Assembly: GCA_902792905.1 (NCBI GenBank)
Contig: CADBBH010000003.1
Location: forward strand, 186,001-250,000
Direction: 5' to 3'
From: Oscillospiraceae bacterium
Lineage (GTDB): Bacteria > Bacillota > Clostridia > Oscillospirales > Acutalibacteraceae
Length of the DNA: 64,000 bases
Shown here: positions 2,935 to 19,765 of the stretch, in pieces
Layout of the letters: every line of letters starts with the position of its first letter
How positions within the stretch are numbered: position 1 is the stretch's first letter
Position numbers and translations under genes: made by a program
The notes under the pieces: generated by a model
What the model was told of the DNA's origin: nothing
Databases searched by the model: none
What the model saw: only the letters and a program-made list of their open reading frames with translations

Positions 2935-3969
2935 ATGCTTAAAGAAATGCTCGCCTCCCGGAATCTTCCGGCGCTCAAACCGCGGGATGAAATGCTCGGA
3001 ATCCTTCAGCGTGAAGTTTACGGCTTCCTGCCGCCGAAGCCGGATGATATATCCTTTACGCAGGAAAAAGACATCATCCGCAGATTCTGCGCCGGAAAAG
3101 CAAATTGCGACAGAATAACCGTAAACTGCCGTGTCGATGGCAGAGAATTCTCATTCCCGATTCTCGCGACGATTCCCAACGACAGAACAAAAGGAAAATA
3201 TCCGCTATTTATCCATATTAATTTCCGCCCGGACAATCCCGACAGATATATGCCGACAGAGGAAATAATCGATAACGGCTTCGCGCTGATTTCCTTATGC
3301 TATGAGGATGTTACAAGCGATGACGGAGATTTTACAAACGGCCTCGCCGGTATTCTTTTCCCAGACGGAAAGCGCCCCGCAGACGGTGCGGGGAAAATCG
3401 CGATGTGGGCTTGGGCGGCTCAGCGCGCGCTTGATTACGCCGAAACTCTCGGCGATACTATCGACCTTGACCGCGTTTGTGTCTGCGGCCATTCACGACT
3501 TGGCAAAACCGCTCTCTTTACTGCGGCGACCGATCCGAGATTTGCCTTTGCCTATTCAAACGGCGCGGGCTGCAGCGGAGCGGCGATTCAGAGGGGAAAG
3601 ACCGGAGAAACAGTTGCCGATATAGTTGATCGTTTTCCGTTCTGGTTCTGCGAAAACTATTATAAATATGCGAATAACGAGGATAAGATGCCATTTGACC
3701 AGCATTATCTGATTGCGTCCATCGCACCGCGCAGGGTATTTGTCGGCTCTGCCGAAGAGGATGCCTGGGCTGATCCTCTCTCCGAATTTCTCTCCAGCGT
3801 CGCGGCTTCGCCCGCATTTGAAAAAGGGATTGTCTGTCCCGACCGTGTGCCCGAAACGGGCGACAGATTTCCCGAAGGCGATGTCGGCTGGCAGATACGC
3901 CCCGGTGTTCATTATTTCAGCCGCCTCGACTGGCAGAGGCTGATTGAATTCATAAAGCTGCACAGTTAA
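2935..3969 (+). CDS. CE15-like glucuronoyl esterase / alpha-beta hydrolase
   Basis: A 344-residue alpha/beta hydrolase. Features typical of carbohydrate esterase family 15 are visible: the nucleophile elbow G-H-S-R-L-G with Ser187, the G-C-S-G-A-A segment at 212-217, F-W-F-C-E-N-Y near 236-242, F-D-Q-H-Y near 254-258, an acidic site near 274-276 and the catalytic His326. CE15 enzymes cut ester links between glucuronic acid and lignin or other alcohols. There is no signal peptide, so it may act on imported fragments. The start at 2935 has a GGAAGTGA binding site and lies just downstream of the promoter. The assignment is by recalled motifs. Confidence 0.72.
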   Translation: MLKEMLASRNLPALKPRDEMLGILQREVYGFLPPKPDDISFTQEKDIIRRFCAGKANCDRITVNCRVDGREFSFPILATIPNDRTKGKYPLFIHINFRPDNPDRYMPTEEIIDNGFALISLCYEDVTSDDGDFTNGLAGILFPDGKRPADGAGKIAMWAWAAQRALDYAETLGDTIDLDRVCVCGHSRLGKTALFTAATDPRFAFAYSNGAGCSGAAIQRGKTGETVADIVDRFPFWFCENYYKYANNEDKMPFDQHYLIASIAPRRVFVGSAEEDAWADPLSEFLSSVAASPAFEKGIVCPDRVPETGDRFPEGDVGWQIRPGVHYFSRLDWQRLIEFIKLHS

Positions 3970-3973
3970 ATGA

Positions 3974-4001
3974 AATCTCCCGCCCTGAAGGACGGGAGAT
4001 T
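3974..4001. terminator. bidirectional terminator hairpin
   Basis: The 9-bp stem (3974-3982 with 3993-4001) lies between two convergent genes. The plus side is followed by a short T-rich run. It could serve both genes. Confidence 0.65.
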
Positions 4002-4007
4002 ATTCTT

Positions 4008-6446
4008 CTACTTTTCTGCCCGATTTATTGTTATCCGCGAGATATTCGGGCTTGTGGTTGTTATGCAGTTGAAGGAGTTGAAATGGTCGTTGGAAAGAAC
4101 AATTTCGTTCATTCCTTCATTCAGCCGGATATATGCTGTTGCGGTTGAGAAATTATAATCGCTGAGCGTATTCACGCACCAGAGTTCGTGTTTTTCATTG
4201 CCTGCGGTTATCGTAACATATTCCTCAATCAGGTCAACATTATAGGCGTGAAGTCCGTTTTCCTCGTTGTTTGAATATTCCAGAGTAATCGCATAGATTC
4301 CTTCACGCGGGGCGTTGAATTCAATTGCCGCGCTGCCGCCGTCCGAATTGATTCCCGTGAGGCAATCCCTGCCTCCGACCGTTTTGATTTCAGCCGTTCC
4401 CGAGAGGGCGAGTTTGTTTAATTCTGCGGTAAATTCATCTTCGTAACCGCAGGGTGCTGCTTCAATATTCCCGCCGTTTTCGTCTTTCACGTAATTGAAT
4501 CCTTTTTTCAGGTATTTATCTGCGTTGCCGATTTTATAAAAACCGTCTGCCGGAGCGATAATCAGATACTCGCCGCAATCCTTATCATATTTGCAATATG
4601 CCGATTCGTTTTCGGTATGCGGAAGGATAAGCAGGGAATCGACTACGAATGTGCCGTCGGAATGCATAAGCCTGATATTGTGCTTTCCCGCTGACAAATC
4701 TGCGGTGAAAGTATATTTATCGGTATATTCGCTCTTGACGGTGTTCGGCAGAGAGATTTCACTTTCTTCGCCGTCAAATATCATCTTTGCCCTGCCGTCG
4801 CATCTTGAAGCGGTGGATGTTCCGTCATTCGCCTTGCCGTAAACAATTGAAATATCATACTTTCCGGCTTTGCCGGTATTGAAATCAAGTGAAATGCCGT
4901 CACCGTCATTTTCAAAGCCGCCGCACATTCCCTGAATTCCGCCCGTCGTACCGTAGGCGCTGTCGTAGGTATATGCTTTGCCGAGCAGAGTTCCGTTTTC
5001 AAATTCAAATCTTTTGGGCAGAGGGGCTGCTTCAAGAAGCTTTTCTCCGCCGTAGGGTTCGATTATTACATGGTAAACCGCGTTTATATCGGGGGTGTCA
5101 ATTCTGATTTTCATATTCGCCGATGCAGTTTCAACCTTATCCGAGATGACTGACGGCTTGAAAACTTCGCCGTTGAGGCCTTCAAAGGTGACCGCTTCAA
5201 CGGTTACGCGGACCCTGCTCTTCCCGAAAATCCTGTCAGCGCCTCTGAGCGCCGCCTGATATGAGTAATCTGCTCCGCCGATAATCAGGTCAATTCGTTT
5301 ATTATCAATATCGCAGGCGCCGATGCCGTCGAGCTTCGATTTATGAAAACCGTCCCTGAAATACTTGACCGTATTCTCAAAATCGGAATGTTTCAGATCA
5401 AGCACCTCGCAGGGAATGTGCTTTCCGCGCATATCGCAATACCATTTATATAGCCACCAGCAGGAATTCGGGCAGTTACCCTTTGTAATCGTATCGCAGA
5501 GATTATCGGAGAGGCGCCAGTAGGCGATATTGCCGTAAACTCCGCTGTCCTCCATAGCGGAAATATAATGAAGCATCGGCGAGGGAACGCCGCATTCCTC
5601 CATTGTTCCGTATTCGGTGATAATAATCGGGATTTCCTTTATTCCGAGTTCTTTTTCAAATTTCCTGTATTCCTTCACATGGTCTCTGAGCCACATTGAG
5701 GATTCGCCGCCGAGCTCATGATAAATCATAATATCGGGAAGACAATCATTCTCTTTGCAGAATTTCAGAAAATCTCCGATTTTGTCAATATTGTAATCGC
5801 AGTAACCCGGTCCGCCGATTTTGCTTCCGGGATGAATTGCCCTTATCTCTTCGTTAGCGAGCTTCCACGCGCGGTAAAACTCCGCCTTTGCCTTATCATC
5901 AAAGGCAAGCCGGCCGCCTTTCTGCGGCGTGCCGAACCATACAGTGTTATCGCATTCATTATACGGGCAGTACACGAGGCGGTCGGCATAATCCTTCTGA
6001 GAGAGAATTCGGACCTTCTCCCTTGCCTGCGGGAGGAAATCATTTTCTACGAATTCCCTGCAGTCGTAGGTCCCCGCCTTTCGCATTTCCTCGATAACAT
6101 CCCAGTTGTAATACCAGGTCGGGTAGCAGTCCTGCAGATAAACAGTTATATAGTCGCAGGTGCCGAGATTGGGGCTGACATCGTCCACGTCGCCTATCGG
6201 ATGCTGAAGGCCGCCGATGACCTTCTGCGAAATGCTCGAAATATTCAGCGTTTTCACCGCCTCCGGCGAAGGAACACCCTCCTGCGCGAGACCGTACAGA
6301 AAGCCGCAGGCGCGTGAAGATATATCCGGTTCGGTGCCTATATCGCTAAGGTCAAATTCCACAGTGGGATAAAACAGATACGGCAGGCCGTGAAGCGCGA
6401 GACCGAGTACGAAAAAGAATGAAAGTATAAGTTTTATTATCTGCAT
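4008..6446 (-). CDS. GH39-like clan GH-A glycosidase with two C-terminal carbohydrate-binding modules
   Basis: An 812-residue protein. Residues 1-25 form a hydrophobic signal or anchor segment. A (beta/alpha)8 barrel follows, with Asn163-Glu164 as likely acid/base and Glu278 in a T-E-Y-G strand as likely nucleophile, the clan GH-A arrangement closest to GH39. Residues about 479-615 look like a CBM35/CBM6 sandwich and about 665-812 like a second. It probably acts at the cell surface on a plant or host polysaccharide. The start at 6446 was chosen because the promoter's -10 box overlaps the region before the longer reading frame and GGTGAT precedes this ATG. The substrate is unknown. Confidence 0.65.
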   Translation of the reverse strand: MQIIKLILSFFFVLGLALHGLPYLFYPTVEFDLSDIGTEPDISSRACGFLYGLAQEGVPSPEAVKTLNISSISQKVIGGLQHPIGDVDDVSPNLGTCDYITVYLQDCYPTWYYNWDVIEEMRKAGTYDCREFVENDFLPQAREKVRILSQKDYADRLVYCPYNECDNTVWFGTPQKGGRLAFDDKAKAEFYRAWKLANEEIRAIHPGSKIGGPGYCDYNIDKIGDFLKFCKENDCLPDIMIYHELGGESSMWLRDHVKEYRKFEKELGIKEIPIIITEYGTMEECGVPSPMLHYISAMEDSGVYGNIAYWRLSDNLCDTITKGNCPNSCWWLYKWYCDMRGKHIPCEVLDLKHSDFENTVKYFRDGFHKSKLDGIGACDIDNKRIDLIIGGADYSYQAALRGADRIFGKSRVRVTVEAVTFEGLNGEVFKPSVISDKVETASANMKIRIDTPDINAVYHVIIEPYGGEKLLEAAPLPKRFEFENGTLLGKAYTYDSAYGTTGGIQGMCGGFENDGDGISLDFNTGKAGKYDISIVYGKANDGTSTASRCDGRAKMIFDGEESEISLPNTVKSEYTDKYTFTADLSAGKHNIRLMHSDGTFVVDSLLILPHTENESAYCKYDKDCGEYLIIAPADGFYKIGNADKYLKKGFNYVKDENGGNIEAAPCGYEDEFTAELNKLALSGTAEIKTVGGRDCLTGINSDGGSAAIEFNAPREGIYAITLEYSNNEENGLHAYNVDLIEEYVTITAGNEKHELWCVNTLSDYNFSTATAYIRLNEGMNEIVLSNDHFNSFNCITTTSPNISRITINRAEK

Positions 6447-7508: not shown

Positions 7509-8972
7509 TTATCCCCACTTTTCGAGGTGCTGGTCTTTCGCGCTCTTCATGAAAGCGGGGTAATCCGGATTTGCGGTGACCTTGAGATTGTCGGTCGATA
7601 AGAGCCAGATGATGAAATCGGCGTAATCGGTGCCGTATGAGCCCGAAACATGGGGTGCTCCTCTTGTGAGCCAGGTGGAATCGGGATAGAGGGCGGTCGA
7701 GGTGTCGCAGACCTTGTCGGGCGAGACATAGCGTGATGAAGTGTCCGCATTTTCAAGTGTTTCGCCGAATGGTGCAACGGTCGCCTTACCGCTCATCAGC
7801 GGAGTTTCAAGCGCGGCATCGCCGTTTACGTATGAGCGCTCATAGACCGGAGCGACCGGAGAATCATAGGTCGCGGCAACAGCGATTTCCATGCCGTTTT
7901 CAACTGCCTGCGCTATCATCGCATCCCTGTTTTTCATCATTTCCTGAAGCTCGGCCGTTTTCGCTATGAAATCGGCTCTCGCTTCTTTTGTGCCGGGACG
8001 CTCATACATATATTTAATGCACGCGTCATAATCCTCGGGGAGCACAAGCGCCCATATCGGCAGCATATTGCCGAAAATCGGACCGAGAAATTCGTCAAAG
8101 ACCTGGTCTTTGTTGTTAGTTACGAATTTCATCGCCAGCTTTGTTACAAGCTTTGTGATTCCGGTGAATTTCAGGGTTTTAATCAATGCCTGCAGGGCAA
8201 AATTGTCACTGAGATTGAGAAGGAAATTGCAGAGTCTGTTTTCGTCGATAACCACATCGCCTTTGAGAAGGTCGGAGGTGACATAGGTTCCGCACCAGGT
8301 TGAGGAGAGGCAGATGAGGCGGTTTATTTTATCCGTGCCGTATTTTGTCATATAGGCTACGCTCATAAGCCCGCCCATACTGCAGTTTACAAGATTCACT
8401 TTGTCACAGTTATGGTCACGCATTGCCGTCTCAACGGTTTCGTTGATTTCATCGGCAGTCTGCATCGGGTCAAGTCGCCAGTCATAATTGAAATAATAGA
8501 CCATATCCCCGCCGAATTTTTCCGCCGCTGTACGGGTAATGCCGAATTCGTAATCGACTCTGTCAAAAAATTCGGGATAATTACCTATTGCGCCGGGGAG
8601 CTTCTCAGTCCCGACATTATACTTTGAGGAGCCGTCCTCGTTGCAGGCGTAGCCGCCGAATATCTTCTCGAGCTCTTCAATAAGGATATGCGTAGCCGCC
8701 TTGCGGTCGTTTTTGAAAAGCTTTGTCAGCAGGGCGGAGCCGACCGCCTTGAGGATGCCGCCGATATCTATATCGCCCATGCAGTTATGCTGCTTTTCGG
8801 TGCCGTAATCAATATAGAGGCCGGTGAAATCCATACCTCTGACAACTATTACCGGATATCCTCCCGCCGGCTGAAGAGCGGCTTCTGTTTTGCTTCCTTC
8901 CTGTGCAAAAGACGGAATGCAGGCGCCGAATATCATTACCGCCGCGAGCATCAATGATAAAAATTTCTTCAT
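7509..8972 (-). CDS. secreted lipase/esterase-like alpha/beta hydrolase (paralogue A)
   Basis: A 487-residue protein with a clear signal peptide (about 1-24, cut near F-A-Q). The mature part begins with the strand G-Y-P-V-I-V-V and has a nucleophile elbow N-C-S-M-G-G with Ser198, resembling LCAT-type or PGAP1-type acyl hydrolases. The first Gly of the usual G-x-S-x-G is Asn here. It is homologous to the protein at 59192-61087: same opening strand, Ser at matching position, and similar C-terminal domain. It is the last gene of a four-gene minus-strand unit, 15 bp after the sugar symporter gene. Substrate unknown. Confidence 0.68.
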   Translation of the reverse strand: MKKFLSLMLAAVMIFGACIPSFAQEGSKTEAALQPAGGYPVIVVRGMDFTGLYIDYGTEKQHNCMGDIDIGGILKAVGSALLTKLFKNDRKAATHILIEELEKIFGGYACNEDGSSKYNVGTEKLPGAIGNYPEFFDRVDYEFGITRTAAEKFGGDMVYYFNYDWRLDPMQTADEINETVETAMRDHNCDKVNLVNCSMGGLMSVAYMTKYGTDKINRLICLSSTWCGTYVTSDLLKGDVVIDENRLCNFLLNLSDNFALQALIKTLKFTGITKLVTKLAMKFVTNNKDQVFDEFLGPIFGNMLPIWALVLPEDYDACIKYMYERPGTKEARADFIAKTAELQEMMKNRDAMIAQAVENGMEIAVAATYDSPVAPVYERSYVNGDAALETPLMSGKATVAPFGETLENADTSSRYVSPDKVCDTSTALYPDSTWLTRGAPHVSGSYGTDYADFIIWLLSTDNLKVTANPDYPAFMKSAKDQHLEKWG

Positions 8973-11413: not shown

Positions 11414-12352
11414 TCAGACCGATACGAGCATCATTCTTTTTTCCGAAAACGGGAGAATTCCGGAGACGAATTTCTTCGCCGCCGCCTCATAGGCAATCAG
11501 GATTTTTCCGTCAACGAACTCGATATCCTCGCTCATTCTCGGAATTGTCATATCTTTGGTATGCCTGCGCGAATCAAGATAACAAAGCGGAATCTTCACG
11601 CTGCCAAGGTCGAATTCGCCGTCGGAATCGCCCTTGATATCATATATCCTGAGCTTTGAACTCATTGTTCCGCCCGAAACGGAGAGCACCGCTTTGCCGT
11701 TTTCGGCCGCGAAACCTTGCACCTTGTCGCAGGTTGAGAAGGCGACTGCGGGCGCTTCGCTCTCAATTCCGAATTCCGCGTCCGGGTTGATTTTATAGCC
11801 GAATGTAAGTGCGGCATAACTGCTGCCGTCGGGGGTTTTCAGCGCGTGGGATTCATCGGTTTCATAGCCGTCTGCGTGATATTCGCCGATAAAGATGTAT
11901 TCGCCGTTGCATGAGCAGTATGAGGCGTTGCAGGGCACATCAATATGACCTATGAACGCTGCCGAACCGCCGTCTGACGCTTCAATCAAATCGCTCTTTT
12001 TGAGCACGAAAAATTTATGCTGATTGCTGATATATACATATTCGCCCGCGGCGGTGATTCCGCCCGCGTGGCCGCCGTAATCCGAACCGTCCTCCCTCTT
12101 GAGCAGAACCATCTTCTCTTCGGAATCCTTAATCATATAGAGGCGGGAGGGCTCGTCATTCTCCATATAACCGCAGCAGATATATATATCCTCATCCGCG
12201 AGATATGTCGAGCCCTGAGGAACGAAATCTGTCGAGAGACCCGGAATATCCGCAACCTTCTCGGAGTTTTTCGCGTATTCGGGATAAAACATTCCCCAGA
12301 AAAATGAGGAGATAAAAGTAATTACGGAAAGAAATAATGCGGTGATGTTCAT
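11414..12352 (-). CDS. exported beta-propeller-like protein, function unknown
   Basis: A 312-residue protein with an N-terminal hydrophobic signal anchor (about 3-22). The rest is beta-rich, with repeated short strands and G-E-Y-V-Y-I / G-E-Y-I-F-I type segments suggesting propeller blades. No catalytic motif was recognised. It is the first gene of the minus-strand unit running to 7509, with a GGAGGA site before the ATG. Confidence 0.55.
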   Translation of the reverse strand: MNITALFLSVITFISSFFWGMFYPEYAKNSEKVADIPGLSTDFVPQGSTYLADEDIYICCGYMENDEPSRLYMIKDSEEKMVLLKREDGSDYGGHAGGITAAGEYVYISNQHKFFVLKKSDLIEASDGGSAAFIGHIDVPCNASYCSCNGEYIFIGEYHADGYETDESHALKTPDGSSYAALTFGYKINPDAEFGIESEAPAVAFSTCDKVQGFAAENGKAVLSVSGGTMSSKLRIYDIKGDSDGEFDLGSVKIPLCYLDSRRHTKDMTIPRMSEDIEFVDGKILIAYEAAAKKFVSGILPFSEKRMMLVSV

Positions 12353-12375
12353 AACCGTTCCTCCTTTACCCGTAA

Positions 12376-12405
12376 ATTATAACATACAGATATAATATTT
12401 TTCAA
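12376..12405 (-). promoter_or_regulatory. promoter of the four-gene minus-strand unit
   Basis: On the minus strand, TTGAAA (complement of 12400-12405) and TATAAT (complement of 12376-12381) have an 18-bp spacer, upstream of the start at 12352. Confidence 0.65.
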
Positions 12406-12429
12406 TCTGATTTTCAGCTTTAACCGCAC

Positions 12430-12458
12430 TTGAAACGCAGGAAAAAATATGCTATGCT
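12430..12458 (+). promoter_or_regulatory. promoter of the GH16 gene
   Basis: TTGAAA at 12430-12435 and TATGCT at 12453-12458 have a 17-bp spacer, 65 bp before the start codon. Confidence 0.55.
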
Positions 12459-12485
12459 GATATTGATTGAACAGGCGCTCAAATC

Positions 12486-12507
12486 TGTAAAGTAAAATCA
12501 CTTTACA
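12486..12507. promoter_or_regulatory. inverted repeat in the GH16 leader, possible operator
   Basis: Perfect 8-bp arms TGTAAAGT and ACTTTACA with a 6-bp spacer lie between the promoter and the ribosome binding site. They could be a repressor site or an mRNA hairpin; there is no T run, so it is not a terminator. Confidence 0.45.
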
Positions 12508-12522
12508 AACGGAGGAAAAACT

Positions 12523-13440
12523 ATGTTCAGACCTTTATTCAAATCAATTATTTCAATATTCCTGAGCATTTCCGCGTTTTTCGGCTCGCTCGGCGGGCAG
12601 ATAAGCGGCAAGCCCTATACCAAGGGCAGAGAGGTCGATATGAGTCAGTTCGAGCTCGTCTGGAGCGATGAATTTGACGGCGATGCGCTCGACCGTACAA
12701 AATGGGATTTTTCCTGGTGGATAACCGAGCGCAAGGGCGGCTACTGGCATGAAGATATGGTACGCGTCGAAGACGGAAACCTCGTCATTTCCGCCGAATA
12801 CAAGGATGAGGCGCTACCCTACCGCTATACAGAATATGACTGGGTCAAGCCCTATAAGCCCGGCTGGTACACCGGCAAGGTCGTCTCGCGCAATAAATAC
12901 GAGCAGACATACGGCTACTTTGAGGTCAGATGTCTCCTGCCCGCGGCGACAGGTCTCTGGAGCGCTTTCTGGCTGATGAACGACGACGGTGTCTATAATG
13001 TTGACGGCAGCGGTGCGGACGGCACCGAGGTTGATGTCTTTGAATCGTTCTACTATAAGGATTACGCATTCGGCGGAGACTATATCTCCTCCGGTATTCA
13101 TTATGACGGCTACGGCGACGACCACAAGGGCGACACGATAGGCAAGCAGTATCTGCCGAATGATCCCTACAGTGAATACAACACCTACGGCCTCGAGTGG
13201 ACAAAAGACGAATACATTTTCTATATAAACGGCAAGGAAACGGGAAGGCTCACTCCCGACGGCGGAGTTTCGCAGAATCCCGAGTATTTCCTGCTCTCCG
13301 TCGAATTCGCCGGAGAAAACGGAATTCAGAATTCCGACCGCCACGGCACCGGCGAAATCAGCAAAACCCCGCAGGAAAACTGGCCCGCGGAGTTCAAGGT
13401 AGATTATATCAGATGCTATCAGTATAAGGATTTGATATGA
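12523..13440 (+). CDS. glycoside hydrolase family 16 beta-glucanase, exported
   Basis: A 305-residue protein. Residues 1-28 form a hydrophobic signal segment. A GH16 jelly-roll follows: W-S-D-E-F-D-G near 47-53 and the catalytic motif E-V-D-V-F-E with Glu169 as nucleophile, Asp171 and Glu174 as acid/base. The extra residue between Asp and Glu is the beta-bulge form of GH16 (laminarinase, agarase or carrageenase types), pointing to beta-1,3- or related glucans rather than lichenan. It has an AGGAGGA-like site and its own promoter and terminator. Confidence 0.85.
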   Translation: MFRPLFKSIISIFLSISAFFGSLGGQISGKPYTKGREVDMSQFELVWSDEFDGDALDRTKWDFSWWITERKGGYWHEDMVRVEDGNLVISAEYKDEALPYRYTEYDWVKPYKPGWYTGKVVSRNKYEQTYGYFEVRCLLPAATGLWSAFWLMNDDGVYNVDGSGADGTEVDVFESFYYKDYAFGGDYISSGIHYDGYGDDHKGDTIGKQYLPNDPYSEYNTYGLEWTKDEYIFYINGKETGRLTPDGGVSQNPEYFLLSVEFAGENGIQNSDRHGTGEISKTPQENWPAEFKVDYIRCYQYKDLI

Positions 13441-13458
13441 ACTGAATTAAGCACTTGC

Positions 13459-13500
13459 AATAAGCAGTTCTCTCCGCCCGGTTAGAACTGCTTATTTTTC
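13459..13500 (+). terminator. terminator after the GH16 gene
   Basis: A 13-bp stem (13459-13471 with 13484-13496) is followed by a short T run. It isolates the hypB operon downstream from read-through. Confidence 0.85.
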
Positions 13501-13515
13501 CTGTATTTATTATTG

Positions 13516-13544
13516 TTGACTTTTTAATTTAATTTTATTATAAT
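13516..13544 (+). promoter_or_regulatory. promoter of the hypB/isomerase operon, predicted leaderless
   Basis: TTGACT at 13516-13521 and a perfect TATAAT at 13539-13544 have a 17-bp spacer. Only six bases separate the -10 box from the ATG at 13551, so the expected transcript start is at or within a base or two of the ATG. No Shine-Dalgarno sequence is present. Confidence 0.75.
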
Positions 13545-13550
13545 TACAAT

Positions 13551-14219
13551 ATGGAAATATTTACAATTAAAGAGGATATTCTCTCCAGAAACAACGAACG
13601 GGCAAAAGAAGTCCGCGCTCTGCTTGACGAAAAAGGCGTTTTTTATGTCAATCTGATGTCATCGCCGGGGGCGGGCAAGACCACCGTTCTTTCAAAGCTT
13701 ATTCCGCGTTTATCGGATGATTTCAGAATAGGCGTCATTGAGGCGGACCTTGATTCCGATAAAGACGCTCTGACCGTCGAACGCGAAACGGGAGCAAAAG
13801 TAATTCAGATTCATACAGCCGGAGCCTGCCACATTACCTGTCAGATGTCCCTTGAGGCGCTTGAGGCGCTCGGGACCGACGGGCTTGATTTGATTTTCCT
13901 TGAGAATGTCGGCAATCTTGTCTGCCCCGCCGAATTCGACACGGGTTCGGATATGAATCTTGTGCTGCTGAGCGTTCCCGAGGGAGATGACAAACCGCTC
14001 AAGTATCCGCTTATGTTTGAGGTTGCGGATGCCGTTGCCGTCACTAAGCTTGATGTGGCGGAGATATTTGATTTCAGTTTCGACAATGCCGTCAAAAATA
14101 TAAAAAAGCGCAATGAAAACGCGGAAATCTTTTTCACTTGCGCTGTTAACGGCAAGGGTATTGACGAACTTGAACAATATATAAGAAACAAAGCAGTCAA
14201 AAAAATCCGTAAGGATTAA
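13551..14219 (+). CDS. hypB: HypB-like nickel-chaperone GTPase (copy 1)
   Basis: A 222-residue SIMIBI-class GTPase. The Walker A loop S-P-G-A-G-K-T-T is at 38-45, the E-A-D-L-D-S-D-K-D switch at 64-72 and T-K-L-D for base recognition at 165-168. HypB's metal site in the G domain is represented by Cys93-His94 and Cys125. An additional Cys97 replaces the usual Asp/Ala stretch. The N-terminal C-x-x-C-G-C motif and His-rich tract of some HypB proteins are absent. HypB normally loads nickel into [NiFe]-hydrogenase or urease; neither is present here. The first gene of the operon, with a likely leaderless mRNA. Confidence 0.82.
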   Translation: MEIFTIKEDILSRNNERAKEVRALLDEKGVFYVNLMSSPGAGKTTVLSKLIPRLSDDFRIGVIEADLDSDKDALTVERETGAKVIQIHTAGACHITCQMSLEALEALGTDGLDLIFLENVGNLVCPAEFDTGSDMNLVLLSVPEGDDKPLKYPLMFEVADAVAVTKLDVAEIFDFSFDNAVKNIKKRNENAEIFFTCAVNGKGIDELEQYIRNKAVKKIRKD

Positions 14220-14240
14220 ATCAGAGAGGAGAACTGTATT

Positions 14241-15698
14241 ATGGCTGACAAAAACGAGAGAATCTGTATCATCGGCGGAGGTCCTGCCGGTCTTTCCTGC
14301 GCAATGTATCTCGAAAAGAAGGGATACTCTGACTATGTAATTTACGAGAAGCTCAATAAGGTCGGCGGCAAATGCTGGTCGCCCAAACTCAAGGTCAATC
14401 ATAACGGCGTTGAGGAAGAGAGAAGCTTCGAGACCGGCGCTATCATGGGCGCTATCACCTATCATGCTGTCAGCGAGATGGAAGAATTCGGCGGATATTA
14501 TCACAAGGGTCCCGATTTCAAAAAGGGCGAGCCGAATATGAGAAGAGAATTCCGCAATCTTGACGGAACAATAGATCATCCTTTTGAGCCGAAAGTCAAT
14601 TTTTCAATCGGCAAAATGCTCAAACTCCTTAAACTCAAAAAGCAGATGAAAAAGCTCAATCAGCTTATGCAGACCAAATATGTCGGCTATGACTGCTACG
14701 GCCATCTGGGCGTCGCGAAGGGCGAATACTACGGAATCTCAAAGGGCGTTGACGGTTATTGCGGCGCCACCAAGGAGAATTCCTTCCCCAACTATATTAA
14801 AGGCACAAACCCGAATCTCAAAGACCTGGCTCTTCCTTTCTCCGAATTCTGCAAGCTCAACGGCGTTGAAGAGGTTCAGAGAATCTGGATTGCTCCCTTC
14901 ACCTCGTTCGGCTACGGTTTCTTTGATGAGATTCCCGCGGCTCTCGTTATGAAATATCTCGATGTTACCACAGCGCTTGAATTCGTCAATATGAAGCTCT
15001 GGACCTGGCAGGACGGAACTCAGGAAATCTATGAGTGCGTCAACAGAAAACTCAAGCACCCCGCAGTACTTGAAACCGAGGTCGTCAAGGTTGAGCGCCC
15101 TGACGGAAAAGTCAATGTAACCATCAGAAAGAACGGCGAGGAAAGCACCGAGACATTCGATAAGCTTATTGTCACCACTCCTCTTGATTATTTCAAGGAT
15201 TATGCCGACGCCACCGATGAAGAAAAAGAACTCTTCGGCAAAATCGTTCACGAAAGATACTGCGATTATATAGCCACTTTCGAGCCCGGCAAGAGCCCCA
15301 ATATCTCCGGTTATATGGTTGATAATATGGTTCCCGAAAGACTCGGTCACGCTATGGTTTATTATAACAGATGGCAGCATCTCGACAGAGACTGCCCCGC
15401 GACGGTCTATGCCCTTGCAAACCATACCGGAACACCCGATGTTGATTACGATACCGTAATGAAGACAATGGATGAGGATATGGAGAAGGTCGGATTCCCC
15501 ATCAAAGAGAAGCTTTTCGCTCAGGAAGTTTACTACTGCCCGCACGTTTCCGCAAAGGATTATGCGGACGGTTGGTATGACAGGCTTGAAGCCATTCAGG
15601 GAACCCGCAACACCTATTACGCGGGTGAAATCATTTCCTTCGGCGACATGGAAGACACCTGCGCCGCCAGCAAGGATATTATCGGAAGATTCTTTTAA
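14241..15698 (+). CDS. FAD flavoprotein resembling polyunsaturated fatty acid isomerase
   Basis: A 485-residue amine-oxidase-fold flavoprotein. The FAD motif G-G-G-P-A-G is at 12-17, with a V-G-G-K-C segment near 42-46. Along its length it resembles what I recall of the linoleate/PUFA isomerase of Propionibacterium acnes: T-K-Y-x-G-Y-D, L-P-F-x-E-F, the G-Y-G-F-F-D segment, L-W-T-W-x-D-G-T-Q, R-L-G-H-x-M-V-Y-Y, and the C-terminal T-Y-Y-A-G-E-I-x-S-F-G. That enzyme moves a double bond by hydride transfer through FAD. An insertion near residues 155-195 is not in the recalled protein. It lies between two hypB-like genes. Alternatives are a desaturase-like or protoporphyrinogen-oxidase-like enzyme. 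A GAGAGGAG site precedes the start. Confidence 0.72.
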   Translation: MADKNERICIIGGGPAGLSCAMYLEKKGYSDYVIYEKLNKVGGKCWSPKLKVNHNGVEEERSFETGAIMGAITYHAVSEMEEFGGYYHKGPDFKKGEPNMRREFRNLDGTIDHPFEPKVNFSIGKMLKLLKLKKQMKKLNQLMQTKYVGYDCYGHLGVAKGEYYGISKGVDGYCGATKENSFPNYIKGTNPNLKDLALPFSEFCKLNGVEEVQRIWIAPFTSFGYGFFDEIPAALVMKYLDVTTALEFVNMKLWTWQDGTQEIYECVNRKLKHPAVLETEVVKVERPDGKVNVTIRKNGEESTETFDKLIVTTPLDYFKDYADATDEEKELFGKIVHERYCDYIATFEPGKSPNISGYMVDNMVPERLGHAMVYYNRWQHLDRDCPATVYALANHTGTPDVDYDTVMKTMDEDMEKVGFPIKEKLFAQEVYYCPHVSAKDYADGWYDRLEAIQGTRNTYYAGEIISFGDMEDTCAASKDIIGRFF

Positions 15699-15704
15699 TT
15701 GATT

Positions 15705-16367
15705 ATGCAGCAGGTTAAAACAATACTTTTATCAAAAAGCGTATTTGAAGACAACGATGCCCGGGCGGAGATTCTCCGCTCGGAGCTTCGTGAAAAAAGA
15801 GTCTGCCTTGTCAATGTCATGTCGTCGCCCGGAAGCGGGAAAACCACGCTCCTGGTCGCTCTCATCAATGCCCTGAAGCATTCTTTCAATATAGGCGTGA
15901 TGGAAGCCGATATAGACTCCGACAAGGATGCTGTTACGGTTGCCGAAAAAACCGGAGTCCGCTCCATCCAGCTTCACACGGGCGGAATGTGCCATCTTGA
16001 CGCGGATATGACTCGTCAGGGACTTTCGGAACTCGGCGAAGGACTCAATCTGATATTCCTTGAGAATGTCGGAAACCTTGTATGCCCGGCAGAATATGAC
16101 ACGGGAGCAACCGTTAATATGGTTATTCTCTCCGTGCCCGAGGGCAATGACAAGCCGCTCAAATATCCGCTTGTTTTTGAAAACAGCGAGCTTGCCGTAA
16201 TAACCAAAACGGACGCTCTGCCATATTTTGATTTCGATATGGACGAGTGTAAAGAATATATCAAGATAAGAAATCCGAAAGCATCGGTTATTGCGGTATC
16301 GGCAAAAACCGGCGACAATATGGATGAGCTTGTCAACTGGTTCATCCGCAGACTTTCCGAGAGGTGA
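15705..16367 (+). CDS. hypB: HypB-like nickel-chaperone GTPase (copy 2)
   Basis: A 220-residue GTPase with the Walker A loop at 41-48, T-K-T-D for base recognition, and a metal site closer to classical HypB than copy 1: G-G-M-C-H-L-D with Cys96 and His97, and Cys127 in N-L-V-C-P. It is clearly homologous to copy 1 but diverged, so not a recent tandem duplicate. The ATG at 15705 is preferred over the TTG at 15699. The ribosome binding site is weak and the gap to the isomerase stop is six bases, suggesting coupled translation. Confidence 0.83.
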   Translation: MQQVKTILLSKSVFEDNDARAEILRSELREKRVCLVNVMSSPGSGKTTLLVALINALKHSFNIGVMEADIDSDKDAVTVAEKTGVRSIQLHTGGMCHLDADMTRQGLSELGEGLNLIFLENVGNLVCPAEYDTGATVNMVILSVPEGNDKPLKYPLVFENSELAVITKTDALPYFDFDMDECKEYIKIRNPKASVIAVSAKTGDNMDELVNWFIRRLSER

Positions 16368-16371
16368 ATAT

Positions 16372-19230
16372 ATGCTTCAACAGAGCAAAGCCGTAAAAAG
16401 CAAATATCAGAACGAAAAAGACGTTCAGAAAAACTACGTAAAGCTCGGTAAAAAAATCACCGATGTGGTAGTTCATAAAATAGGCGGAATTACCGCCGAC
16501 GATCCCGAATACTGGGGCCTGCGCGAGGTTCTTACCCCAGAGATGGTTGACCTCTGCAACAAGATGAAGCTTCGCAAGCACTATACCCTTGATGATCTCA
16601 TCAAGCTTCATAAAGGCGTTGACCCCAAACATCTTGAAGAGATTTACGAGCAGATGTCCGTAATCGGCATAATCGAATATGATTACGGCGACAACTACAC
16701 TCATAATCTCAAGGATGATCATCCGATTAAGGATGCGCCGAAAATCAAGAGATACAGACTGCCGTTTTTCGTGCCCGGTTCGGCGGAGCTTTTCAACTCC
16801 TCGCTTGACCGCATTGAGAAAAATCCCGCAGTAACAAGTTTCTTTGAGAGAATGACCTATATTCCTCTCGCCGGCATAACCCATATGGTTGCCCCGGGCG
16901 GTATGGGTATAGGTATGCATGTTATTCCCGTTGAGCAGGCGATAAACGCTCAGCAGGAAGCGATTACCCTTGAAAAGATTTCTTACTGGCTTGAAAAATA
17001 TGACGGCCACATCGCCGCCGGCATCTGCTCATGCAGAGCGTCCAGAGCAGTGCTTGACGAAGGCTGCACCGACGATGTCAACGATTGGTGTGTTCAGCTG
17101 GGCGATATGGCGGATTACGCGGTTGAAACCCACCGCGCACACTATATCACAAAAGAGCGCGCTCTCGAGATATTTGAGCTCGCGGAAAAGAACGGATATG
17201 TCCATCAGATAACCAATATCGACGGCGAAAACAAGATTTTCGATATCTGCAACTGTAATGTCCGTATCTGTAACGCTCTCAGAACCTCAATGCTCTTCAA
17301 CACCCCCTATCTTTCGAGGAGTGCATATACCTCAAAAGTTGACCGTGAAAAATGCGTTGCCTGCGGCAAGTGTGTTGAAATCTGTCCGGCGGGCGCGGTC
17401 AAACTCGGTCAGAAACTCTGCAAGAAAGACGGAACTCCCGTTCAGTATAAGCATGCCATCCTGCCCGATAAAGTCCGCTGGGGCGAATATGCGTGGGATG
17501 AGAATTACAGAGATACAAAGGTAATGTCCAATACCTATGCTCAGGGCAGTGCACCGTGTAAGGCGGCTTGCCCCGCTCACGTGCCTATTCAGGCATATCT
17601 CAAGCTCGCGCGCGACGGTAAATACCGCGAGGCGCTTGCGATGATTAAAACAGAGAATCCCTTCCCCTCAGTCTGCGGACGCGTCTGCAACAAGAGATGT
17701 GAGGACGCCTGCACAAGAGGTCTCGTGGATTCTCCCGTATCAATCGATGCGGTCAAGAAGTTCGTAGCCGATCTCGAACTCAGGAGTGAAGACCGCTATG
17801 TTCCCGAAAAGACTGTTCAGTCCGTTTACGGCAAATGGGATGACAAGATTGCGATAATCGGCGGCGGCCCCGCAGGTCTTTCCGCTGCCTATTACCTTGC
17901 GGAGATGGGATATACACCCACCGTATTCGAAAAGAATCCCGCTCCCGGCGGTATGCTGACCTATGGTATTCCGAGCTATAAACTCGAAAAAGATGTTATT
18001 GAAGCCGAGATAGATGTTCTGCGCAAACTCGGTGTGGAAATCAAGTGCGGCGTCAATGTCGGCGAGGATGTCACGATTGACGAGCTCCGCAAGCAGGGAT
18101 ATAAAGCGTTCTATATCGCTATCGGCTGTCAGGGCGGCAGACGCCCCGGCGTACCGAATGATGACGCAGAGGGAACGGATATAGCCGTTTCATATCTGCG
18201 TAAGAGCTATGATAAGAGAGAAAACTTCACCGGTGACGTAGTAGTGGTCGGCGGCGGCAACGTTGCAGTTGACTGCGCAAGAAACGCCCATCGTCTCGGT
18301 GCCTCAAGCGTAAAGATGTTCTCGCTTGAATCCCGCGATATTATGCCTGCGACCAAGCAGGAAATAGCAGAAACCCTCGAAGAGGATATCGAAATCTGCA
18401 ACAGCTGGGGACCCAAAGAGGTGCTCACCGATGATTCGGGCAAGGTAACTGCAATCGTATTCAAGCGCTGCGTTTCGGTCTATGACGCCGACGGCAGATT
18501 TGCTCCCGCATATGATGAAGATGAAACTATCGAAGTCAAGGCGGATAAGATTGTATTTGCAATCGGTCAGACCATCGAATGGGGCAAGCTTCTTGAAGGC
18601 ACTAAGGTCGAATTCTGGCACGGCAATTATCCCGTAGCGGATAAATTCACCTATCAGACAGCCGAGGAAGATATATTCGTCGGCGGCGACGTTTACACTG
18701 GTCCCAAATTCGTTATAGATGCAATCGCCGCAGGTCACGAGGCTGCGGAGAGCCTTCACCGTTTCGTAAGGCCGAAGGCGGATATGACAATCGGCAGAAA
18801 CAGACGCGCCTATACTCCTCTTGATAAAGACGATATTTCCTTCCCGGATTATGACAAAGCCGGCAGACAGGAAGCGGGCATGGATGATTCGGAAGATCAC
18901 AAAATGTCTTATAAAGATCTTCATCTCACGCTCACCGAGGAGCAGGTTAAGACCGAGACGGCAAGATGTCTCTCGTGCGGAGCTTCTTATGTCGATCCGA
19001 ATCTCTGTATCGGCTGCGGCCTCTGCACCACAAAATGCCAGTTTGACGCCATCCATCTTATCAGAGACAATCCGAAATGCTCGGATATGCGCGTGGCCGA
19101 AGATAAGGTGACAGGTCTTATGAAATATGAGATTTCCCGCCTGGGCAAGATAATTGCCAACTCCGGCTCCGAAGAAGCGAAGATTATGCGCGAGAAGCGC
19201 AAAGAATGGAAAAAGGCGCAAAAAGGCTGA
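16372..19230 (+). CDS. multi-cluster Fe-S/FAD/NAD(P)H oxidoreductase (GltD-like)
   Basis: A 952-residue modular redox protein. An N-terminal domain carries Cys219, Cys221, Cys232, Cys240 and Cys293, Cys295, Cys300, the pattern of a ferredoxin-associated iron-sulfur module. A [4Fe-4S] motif lies at Cys328/331/334/338. A glutamate-synthase-small-subunit-like part follows: cysteines at 396-447, an FAD loop G-G-G-P-A-G at 497-502 and a pyridine-nucleotide loop G-G-G-N-V-A at 627-632. A final ferredoxin motif is at Cys879/882/885/889. It should pass electrons between NAD(P)H and a ferredoxin-like partner or substrate. The start at 16372 has a GAGGTGA site overlapping the preceding stop. Confidence 0.8.
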   Translation: MLQQSKAVKSKYQNEKDVQKNYVKLGKKITDVVVHKIGGITADDPEYWGLREVLTPEMVDLCNKMKLRKHYTLDDLIKLHKGVDPKHLEEIYEQMSVIGIIEYDYGDNYTHNLKDDHPIKDAPKIKRYRLPFFVPGSAELFNSSLDRIEKNPAVTSFFERMTYIPLAGITHMVAPGGMGIGMHVIPVEQAINAQQEAITLEKISYWLEKYDGHIAAGICSCRASRAVLDEGCTDDVNDWCVQLGDMADYAVETHRAHYITKERALEIFELAEKNGYVHQITNIDGENKIFDICNCNVRICNALRTSMLFNTPYLSRSAYTSKVDREKCVACGKCVEICPAGAVKLGQKLCKKDGTPVQYKHAILPDKVRWGEYAWDENYRDTKVMSNTYAQGSAPCKAACPAHVPIQAYLKLARDGKYREALAMIKTENPFPSVCGRVCNKRCEDACTRGLVDSPVSIDAVKKFVADLELRSEDRYVPEKTVQSVYGKWDDKIAIIGGGPAGLSAAYYLAEMGYTPTVFEKNPAPGGMLTYGIPSYKLEKDVIEAEIDVLRKLGVEIKCGVNVGEDVTIDELRKQGYKAFYIAIGCQGGRRPGVPNDDAEGTDIAVSYLRKSYDKRENFTGDVVVVGGGNVAVDCARNAHRLGASSVKMFSLESRDIMPATKQEIAETLEEDIEICNSWGPKEVLTDDSGKVTAIVFKRCVSVYDADGRFAPAYDEDETIEVKADKIVFAIGQTIEWGKLLEGTKVEFWHGNYPVADKFTYQTAEEDIFVGGDVYTGPKFVIDAIAAGHEAAESLHRFVRPKADMTIGRNRRAYTPLDKDDISFPDYDKAGRQEAGMDDSEDHKMSYKDLHLTLTEEQVKTETARCLSCGASYVDPNLCIGCGLCTTKCQFDAIHLIRDNPKCSDMRVAEDKVTGLMKYEISRLGKIIANSGSEEAKIMREKRKEWKKAQKG

Positions 19231-19234
19231 TAAA

Positions 19235-19603
19235 ATGCACGAACTCGGTATAGTAATGAATGTCGTTGAGCAGGTGGATAAAATAGCCGCCGACAATAAA
19301 GCTCTTAAAGTAGCCGGCATCACGATGGAAATTGGCGAAGTCAGTACCATCGTGCCGGAGCTGTTTCTCGATGCTTTCAACTGGGCGAAAAAGCGCACGG
19401 AATATCTGAAGGAAGCCGAGCTTGAAATGATTATAATCGAGGGCAGGACATACTGCCGCGCCTGCGGCGAAACCTACCGGACAACCGAATTCGGCAAAAA
19501 ATGCCCTCATTGCGGCAGTCCGGATACATATCTGCTGACCGGCGATCAGGTAATTATCAAAGATATTTCCGCCGTGTTTGAGCAGGAGGAAGCAGAAGAA
19601 TAA
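19235..19603 (+). CDS. hypA: HypA nickel metallochaperone
   Basis: A 122-residue protein of normal HypA length. The N-terminal Met1-His2-Glu3 nickel-binding motif is intact, and a zinc site is formed by Cys74, Cys77, Cys90 and Cys93. HypA hands nickel to HypB clients. The start at 19235 is fixed by the need for His2. It begins four bases after the oxidoreductase stop and ends the operon. No hydrogenase or urease gene is within the window. Confidence 0.93.
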   Translation: MHELGIVMNVVEQVDKIAADNKALKVAGITMEIGEVSTIVPELFLDAFNWAKKRTEYLKEAELEMIIIEGRTYCRACGETYRTTEFGKKCPHCGSPDTYLLTGDQVIIKDISAVFEQEEAEE

Positions 19604-19616
19604 TTCCAAATTCAAA

Positions 19617-19660
19617 GCGGCAAGATCTGTAACAATGCACAGATTCTGCCGCCGGTTTTT
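19617..19660 (+). terminator. terminator of the hypB/isomerase/hypA operon
   Basis: A long stem (19617-19630 with 19639-19652, one internal mismatch region) is followed by T5. Confidence 0.88.
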
Positions 19661-19765
19661 ATATATATTGAATAAACGATTAGAGTGAAATAGCAGGTTT
19701 TGCTACAGCGGTCAGCTTATAAACGACACGCTGAAATCTCCGGATTCAGAGGCAGGAGGGCTTAT

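Follow-up and report, generated by a model that had tools for sequence, protein, structure and literature searches.

A five-gene operon with a PAI-like flavoprotein, an IsrA-like oxidoreductase and HypA/HypB proteins as a candidate system for biohydrogenation of polyunsaturated fatty acids

What do a HypA protein and two HypB GTPases serve when they are encoded together with a flavoprotein and a large iron-sulfur oxidoreductase? The question is raised by a five-gene operon in an Oscillospiraceae bacterium (assembly GCA_902792905.1, contig CADBBH010000003.1), within a 64,000-nucleotide stretch of DNA analyzed here as a whole and referred to as the window. The flavoprotein resembles PAI, the polyunsaturated fatty acid (PUFA) isomerase of Propionibacterium acnes, and the oxidoreductase resembles IsrA, a putative isoprene reductase. 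We consider that the operon probably serves the anaerobic biohydrogenation, in two steps, of polyunsaturated C18 fatty acids in free form, with HypA and HypB supplying the metal of the reductase. Supporting this are the sequence families of the proteins, metal-site residues that are invariant, the structure of the operon, the repeated linkage and co-occurrence of isomerase and reductase, and the lack of matches to four other clients or partners related to HypA/HypB in the assembled genome.

Operon structure

The five genes lie on the plus strand in the order hypB1 (13551-14219), the flavoprotein gene (14241-15698), hypB2 (15705-16367), the gene of the Fe-S/FAD/NAD(P)H oxidoreductase (16372-19230) and hypA (19235-19603), separated by gaps of 21, 6, 4 and 4 bp. 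For hypB2 the ATG at 15705 was taken as the start; a TTG is also present at 15699. The operon is preceded by a promoter, TTGACT-17-TATAAT (13516-13544, plus strand), which has 11 of 12 consensus bases, ends 6 bp 5' of the first ATG and ranks best among the 21 sigma-70-like sites of the region (shuffled sequence averaged 8.0). Nine operons were aligned over this region, namely the one in the window (start codon at 13551) and those of loci L042-L047, L077 and L101. Most of their upstream sequence drifts; TTGACT is kept in eight of the nine. Because the -10 box is kept in all nine, 6-9 bp 5' of the ATG, the transcript is probably leaderless. On the 3' side of hypA, a terminator-like hairpin with a T run (19617-19672, plus strand; hairpin proper at about 19617-19652) folds at -19.7 kcal/mol with a z of -3.9. 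This hairpin has internal mismatches and was not among the sites given by the consensus scan; it was found by folding. Coordinates, profiles and folding thus bear out the original prediction of this gene order between its own promoter and terminator, with gaps of 4 to 21 bp.

The PAI-like flavoprotein

The flavoprotein (485 amino acids) has a single strong match in the PDB, the PAI entry 2b9w, entitled 'CLA-producing fatty acid isomerase' (CLA, conjugated linoleic acid), with an E value of 3.2e-107; the next best match is at 5.3e-6. It is 46% identical to PAI across nearly the whole length and about 60 residues longer. Residues R88 and F193 of PAI, which we take to be the substrate-binding residues, are conserved in 43 of 44 rows (the remaining row being truncated) and in all 44 rows, respectively. 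Two trees of 48 rows each were built, the first thinned by hand from 85 rows and the second from a similar hand pick with PAI, the protein of L131 and four CrtI-like rows added. PAI falls into one set (100*) with the window flavoprotein and 34 of its relatives, and the CrtI-like proteins lie far outside. Full-length homology and a common fold thus tie the flavoprotein to 2b9w above other proteins of the amine-oxidase fold. We propose that it is a PAI-type PUFA isomerase, as the original prediction had read it from its resemblance to such enzymes.

A grouping with an unrelated amine-oxidase branch, which would have counted against the original prediction, was not seen: the protein groups with PAI in the tree, and 2b9w is its sole strong PDB match.

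The IsrA-like oxidoreductase

IsrA of Acetobacterium wieringae is induced by isoprene, and its gene shares an operon with those of HypA and HypB (Kronen 2023, PMC10134865). According to this paper, its N-domain belongs to no known family and carries a Cys6 site formed in part by C180xC182 and C254xC256; a GltD/Nfn-like core and a C-terminal ferredoxin region follow. Among 988 published relatives, hypA occurs nearby at a frequency of 0.73 and hypB at 0.56. The authors suggest that relatives of IsrA may hydrogenate other conjugated hydrocarbons; in A. woodii and A. fimetarium an oleate hydratase is adjacent, and some relatives have a ferredoxin oxidoreductase (ENOG41061TH) beside them.

The large protein of the window shares this architecture. 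It comprises, in order, an N-terminal Cys6 domain, Fer4, Fer4_20, Pyr_redox_2 and a C-terminal ferredoxin-like region, and its residues from 391 onward form a core of the GltD/Nfn/DPD type. With 952 amino acids it is near the roughly 900 of IsrA clade 9, in which a domain of no known family likewise precedes a GltD/Nfn-like core. In a Pfam search whose query starts one codon before the ATG, no family was found for the part preceding the first Fer4 (323 in that numbering); the search gave just Fer4-type matches at 318-352, plus two matches at E 0.13 and 0.25. The structure matches listed for the protein start at residue 372. Two CxC motifs, at 219 and 293, are 74 residues apart, the spacing seen in IsrA. 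Together with C240 and C300 they make up six N-domain cysteines (219, 221, 240, 293, 295 and 300; codons C219 to C300 at 17026-17271, plus strand), which, like H278, are invariant in all 49 rows (48 open reading frames (ORFs) of at least 850 amino acids from the cluster, and the window). We propose these residues as the active-site cluster and a candidate nickel site.

The isr operon and that of the window are alike in the domain order of the oxidoreductase, in its linkage to HypA and HypB, as in the relatives of the window, and in the lack of HypD in the genome. They differ in gene content: the published operon has two hypA genes, one hypB, a separate ferredoxin and no isomerase, whereas the window has one hypA, two hypB genes, the PAI-like isomerase and no extra ferredoxin gene. 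The likeness to the electron-bifurcating transhydrogenases NfnABC/StnABC is limited to the core; nothing in that match corresponds to the N-terminal Cys6 part or to the operon partners. By its resemblance to IsrA, the large protein is likely a diene reductase and the client of HypA/HypB. The original prediction that it could supply or accept electrons holds as far as its redox nature goes, and falls short of this likely catalytic role.

The remark in the original prediction that no described system of this layout was known needs a similar amendment. The association of IsrA with HypA/HypB was published in 2023, and a PUFA isomerase is not named beside IsrA relatives in the available text of that paper (PMC10134865). 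Searches of the open-licence literature of PubMed Central (PMC) gave this paper alone of its kind, and none that joins IsrA/HypAB with a PUFA isomerase or with fatty acid biohydrogenation. The pairing of isomerase and reductase as read here came up in none of these searches.

HypA, HypB and their possible clients

Both HypB-type GTPases, candidate nickel chaperones, match TIGR00073 well above its cut-off of 121.2 bits (hypB1, 7.8e-67 and 224.9 bits; hypB2, 3e-64 and 216.5 bits). The HypA-type metallochaperone starts with MHE and has two CxxC motifs; it passes PF01155 (100.8 bits, cut-off 28.9) and reaches just 68.7 bits with TIGR00100, below the cut-off of 88.1. Conservation was assessed among HypA proteins of 105-135 amino acids and HypB proteins of 190-260 amino acids. 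H2, E3 and the four cysteines of the two CxxC motifs of HypA are kept in 32 of 32 rows; C96 and C127 of HypB, the CH...C pattern of the G domain, are kept in all 57 rows and H97 in 56 of them (C93-H94 and C125 in hypB1). These residues agree with the nickel and zinc ligands given in PMC10134865. Since the nickel-site residues of both proteins are conserved, the suggestion that the HypB proteins were recruited for a role other than nickel looks less likely.

The two HypB proteins are 52% identical, and their genes share a 144-nt stretch of 75% DNA identity (13877-14020 and 16037-16180), consistent with an old duplication.

In the genome of the window (84.4% complete), no match was obtained for HypD, the [NiFe] large subunit, urease alpha or the prismane/CODH (carbon monoxide dehydrogenase) family, and one HypA only is above the cut-off. 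A maturation set for a [NiFe]-hydrogenase is accordingly not seen there, and the absence of a hydrogenase client noted in the original prediction extends to this assembly. Among 23 genomes, 22 of them with an IsrA-like gene, HypD was above the cut-off in three and the [NiFe] large subunit in two. Searches for urease, prismane and LarA covered 10 of these 23 genomes; the prismane family, which also includes hybrid-cluster proteins, matched five of the ten, the genome of the window not among them. That HypA/HypB mature a metal-dependent partner within the set, as had been suggested, gains support, with the IsrA-like protein as the likely client.

Conservation and co-occurrence of the set

When species genomes were scanned with the flavoprotein, 118 relatives came up, and the loci of the best 80 were used. 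The exact five-gene order recurs complete in 10 of the 80 loci, which confirms that the set is real and more than a chance arrangement; one of the ten, L101, is nearly identical to the window and probably of the same species. An IsrA-like N-domain is present in 31 loci and HypA or HypB in 30. Nine further arrangements with an IsrA-like gene were observed, some of them ending at contig ends. These include divergent halves (L060, L063, L087 and L089), the isomerase behind hypA (L067, L071, L072 and L075), the isomerase adjoining isrA alone (L108, L109, L114 and L121) and inverted hyp genes (L117). Cultured carriers are represented by Porcincola intestinalis (L117) and by isolate NK3D112, of rumen origin (L109). 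In more distant genomes (L142-L145), a helix-turn-helix (HTH) gene, a flavoprotein gene, isrA, DUF5692 and hypA follow one another, and hypB varies in position or was not seen. HypA/HypB remain beside IsrA-like genes through many of these arrangements. The search of other genomes for the five-gene order thus revealed a set that stays linked through rearrangement and does not scatter.

Co-occurrence was also assessed beyond these loci. Order-wide, an IsrA-like gene was found in 15 of 345 genomes and the flavoprotein in 6 of 340, all six within those 15; the naive P value of 2.4e-9 for this overlap is too small because of genome relatedness and joint transfer. In a phylum sample, eight of 299 genomes have an IsrA-like gene, as do five of the six flavoprotein genomes. 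For comparison, among the 49 genomes whose flavoprotein locus lacks a nearby IsrA-like gene, 44 have one at E 1e-15 or better. The flavoprotein occurs at E 1e-30 or better in 10 of 22 IsrA genomes. The presence of the isomerase is a far better predictor of the reductase than the other way round.

Several loci carry additional genes. A DUF5692 membrane protein accompanies the IsrA-like genes of L142-L145 and L147-L151 (Pfam on one copy each), and most of these loci also encode an HTH protein together with a flavoprotein distant from PAI (23-32% identical to it). In L124 (G533, 12342-15079) and L131 (G633), a CrtI-like FAD protein and a reductase of the FNR type that carries a 2Fe-2S domain lie between or beside the flavoprotein and IsrA-like genes and are candidates for a further lipid redox step; the CrtI-like member was named by eye, and Pfam gave DAO/Amino_oxidase, the L124 copies being those tested. 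On the 3' side of the isomerase in L071, L072 and L075, a pair resembling dihydropyrimidine dehydrogenase comprises a 410-amino-acid GltD-like protein (Fer4_20, Pyr_redox_2) and a 415-amino-acid protein, the latter named by eye.

Habitat and gene transfer

Ruminant-tract catalogues or hosts appear in 49 of the 80 record titles; a ruminant host is stated explicitly in 19, and RUG, RGIG and RUI are read as abbreviations of ruminant-tract catalogues. At 88% identity the window flavoprotein matches a protein from a goat reticulum record with the label Bacilli, and at 79% one from a goat rumen record with the label Spirochaetaceae. Its group in the tree is mixed, with Bacilli, Clostridia and others among the labels. 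These identities across labelled groups, together with the mixed group, point to transfer of the gene between classes, if the record labels are right. The ruminant tract is described as a habitat rich in C18 PUFA (PMC2836310).

In the Spirochaetaceae-labelled record (L098) the isomerase is present at 3767-5224 and no IsrA-like gene was found in the genome; the isomerase was perhaps transferred alone, or the assembly has a gap.

Proposed pathway and alternative explanations

Linoleic acid biohydrogenation in the rumen is reported to proceed by isomerization followed by reductions (PMC6037716), and a purified CLA reductase of Butyrivibrio reportedly did not reduce t11,c15-18:2 and did reduce its conjugated isomer (PMC2654759). 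An operon that encodes a PAI relative together with an enzyme akin to a putative conjugated-diene reductase fits both steps. Isoprene is a conjugated diene, so an isomerase whose products are conjugated dienes is a logical upstream partner of an IsrA-like protein. Judging by its family, the FAD flavoprotein would do what PAI does: it would take linoleic or alpha-linolenic acid and shift one of the double bonds, so that a conjugated diene results. Within the IsrA-type protein, electrons from NAD(P)H would then travel via FAD and a chain of [4Fe-4S] clusters to the N-terminal Cys6 site, where the conjugated diene would be reduced to a trans mono-ene. The proposed reaction is that of the CLA reductase of Butyrivibrio fibrisolvens, a conjugated diene acid giving a trans mono-ene (Hughes 1982; Fukuda 2007). 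HypA and the two HypB GTPases would insert a metal into the Cys6 site, most likely nickel, which PMC10134865 proposes for IsrA. Both the substrate and the nickel are inferred. The biohydrogenation hypothesis raised in the original prediction thereby emerges as the best fit to the set.

Several observations weigh against this proposal. The evidence is drawn from sequence and genome context; IsrA itself is a putative reductase, named from expression data (PMC10134865), and the likeness of the window protein to it was judged from the published description. The structure predicted for the IsrA-like protein is of poor quality (mean predicted local distance difference test score, pLDDT, of 66.3; ten-residue blocks of 28-51 at 301-390), and in the N-domain it is too weak for either the cluster or a fatty acid tunnel to be visible. 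The five-gene order is complete in just those 10 loci, and 49 of the 80 have no IsrA-like gene in the stretch examined, some ending at contig ends. In 44 of these 49 genomes such a gene is carried elsewhere (E 1e-15 or better), and in the other five none was found anywhere at that threshold. No flavoprotein at E 1e-30 or better was found in 12 of the 22 IsrA genomes, so the reductase family has other uses. No ruminant source is revealed by 31 of the 80 record titles. The incompleteness of the assembly weakens the absences of other clients, and one weak LarA-like match was obtained there. A gene for a Butyrivibrio CLA reductase, moreover, is cited as sequenced already in 2007 (Fukuda).

The same isomerase-then-reductase chemistry could act on another unsaturated lipid, such as a plant terpenoid, a phytol-type compound, a carotenoid or an oxylipin. 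Isoprene is the reported substrate of IsrA and terpenes have been proposed for its relatives (PMC10134865), and the low identity to PAI of the distant flavoproteins beside IsrA-like genes implies that substrates may vary. The window flavoprotein, however, is far closer to PAI over nearly its full length and keeps R88 and F193, and its close relatives concentrate in ruminant-tract records, a setting rich in C18 PUFA; we regard another lipid as unlikely. Somewhat less unlikely, although still doubtful, is that the metal supplied by HypA/HypB is not nickel, or that these proteins are GTP-driven helpers of Fe-S assembly, so that the reductase would not be a nickel enzyme; this is compatible with the two-step pathway. 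In its favor, the genome lacks matches to HypD and to the tested nickel clients hydrogenase and urease, and the HypB proteins have no histidine-rich stretch (2 and 3 His). Against it stand C96-H97...C127 of HypB and H2-E3 of HypA, conserved residues of the kinds named as nickel ligands in PMC10134865.

It is very improbable that HypA/HypB merely share the operon while their client is an unrelated enzyme encoded at another place in the genome. The incomplete assembly and the LarA-like match leave some room for such a client, but HypD and the [NiFe] large subunit are rare among the 23 genomes, and LarA is matured by proteins of its own. One of these, larE, is named in PMC10134865, and the frequencies published there, like the many arrangements found here, place HypA/HypB beside IsrA-like genes.

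Returning to fatty acid biohydrogenation, a broader version can be offered tentatively. The operon may represent a horizontally spread set for PUFA biohydrogenation in uncultured rumen Bacillota, pairing a diene-conjugating flavin isomerase with a new class of nickel/Fe-S enzyme that would hydrogenate unactivated conjugated C=C bonds with nickel at the Cys6 site and might be electron-bifurcating.

Rumen biohydrogenation sets the saturation of milk and meat fat, and its genes are poorly known. A survey of butyrivibrio genomes could not search for the fatty acid oxidoreductase, which was not in KEGG, COG or Pfam (PMC4478896), and another reports that a linoleate isomerase gene was found neither in the Butyrivibrio strain studied nor in other Butyrivibrio species (PMC6249431). 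As candidate machinery for hydrogenating dietary polyunsaturated fat, the five-gene set supplies cloneable candidates for both steps in a single transcript and suggests a second class of substrates on which the IsrA family can be tested. If nickel is confirmed, the reductase would be a new type of nickel enzyme.

Flanking genes

Both flanks of the operon look unrelated to the five-gene set. A GH16-type glycosyl hydrolase lies upstream; downstream, a short ORF on the opposite strand is followed from 20846 by ORFs reading as ribosomal proteins (named by eye). About 4.5 kb from the operon and outside it, an ORF on the minus strand (7509-8972) has a start that, judged by eye, resembles a signal peptide, and it matches the LCAT/alpha-beta hydrolase family (PF02450, 6.8e-6); its product is a possible lipase that could release fatty acids.

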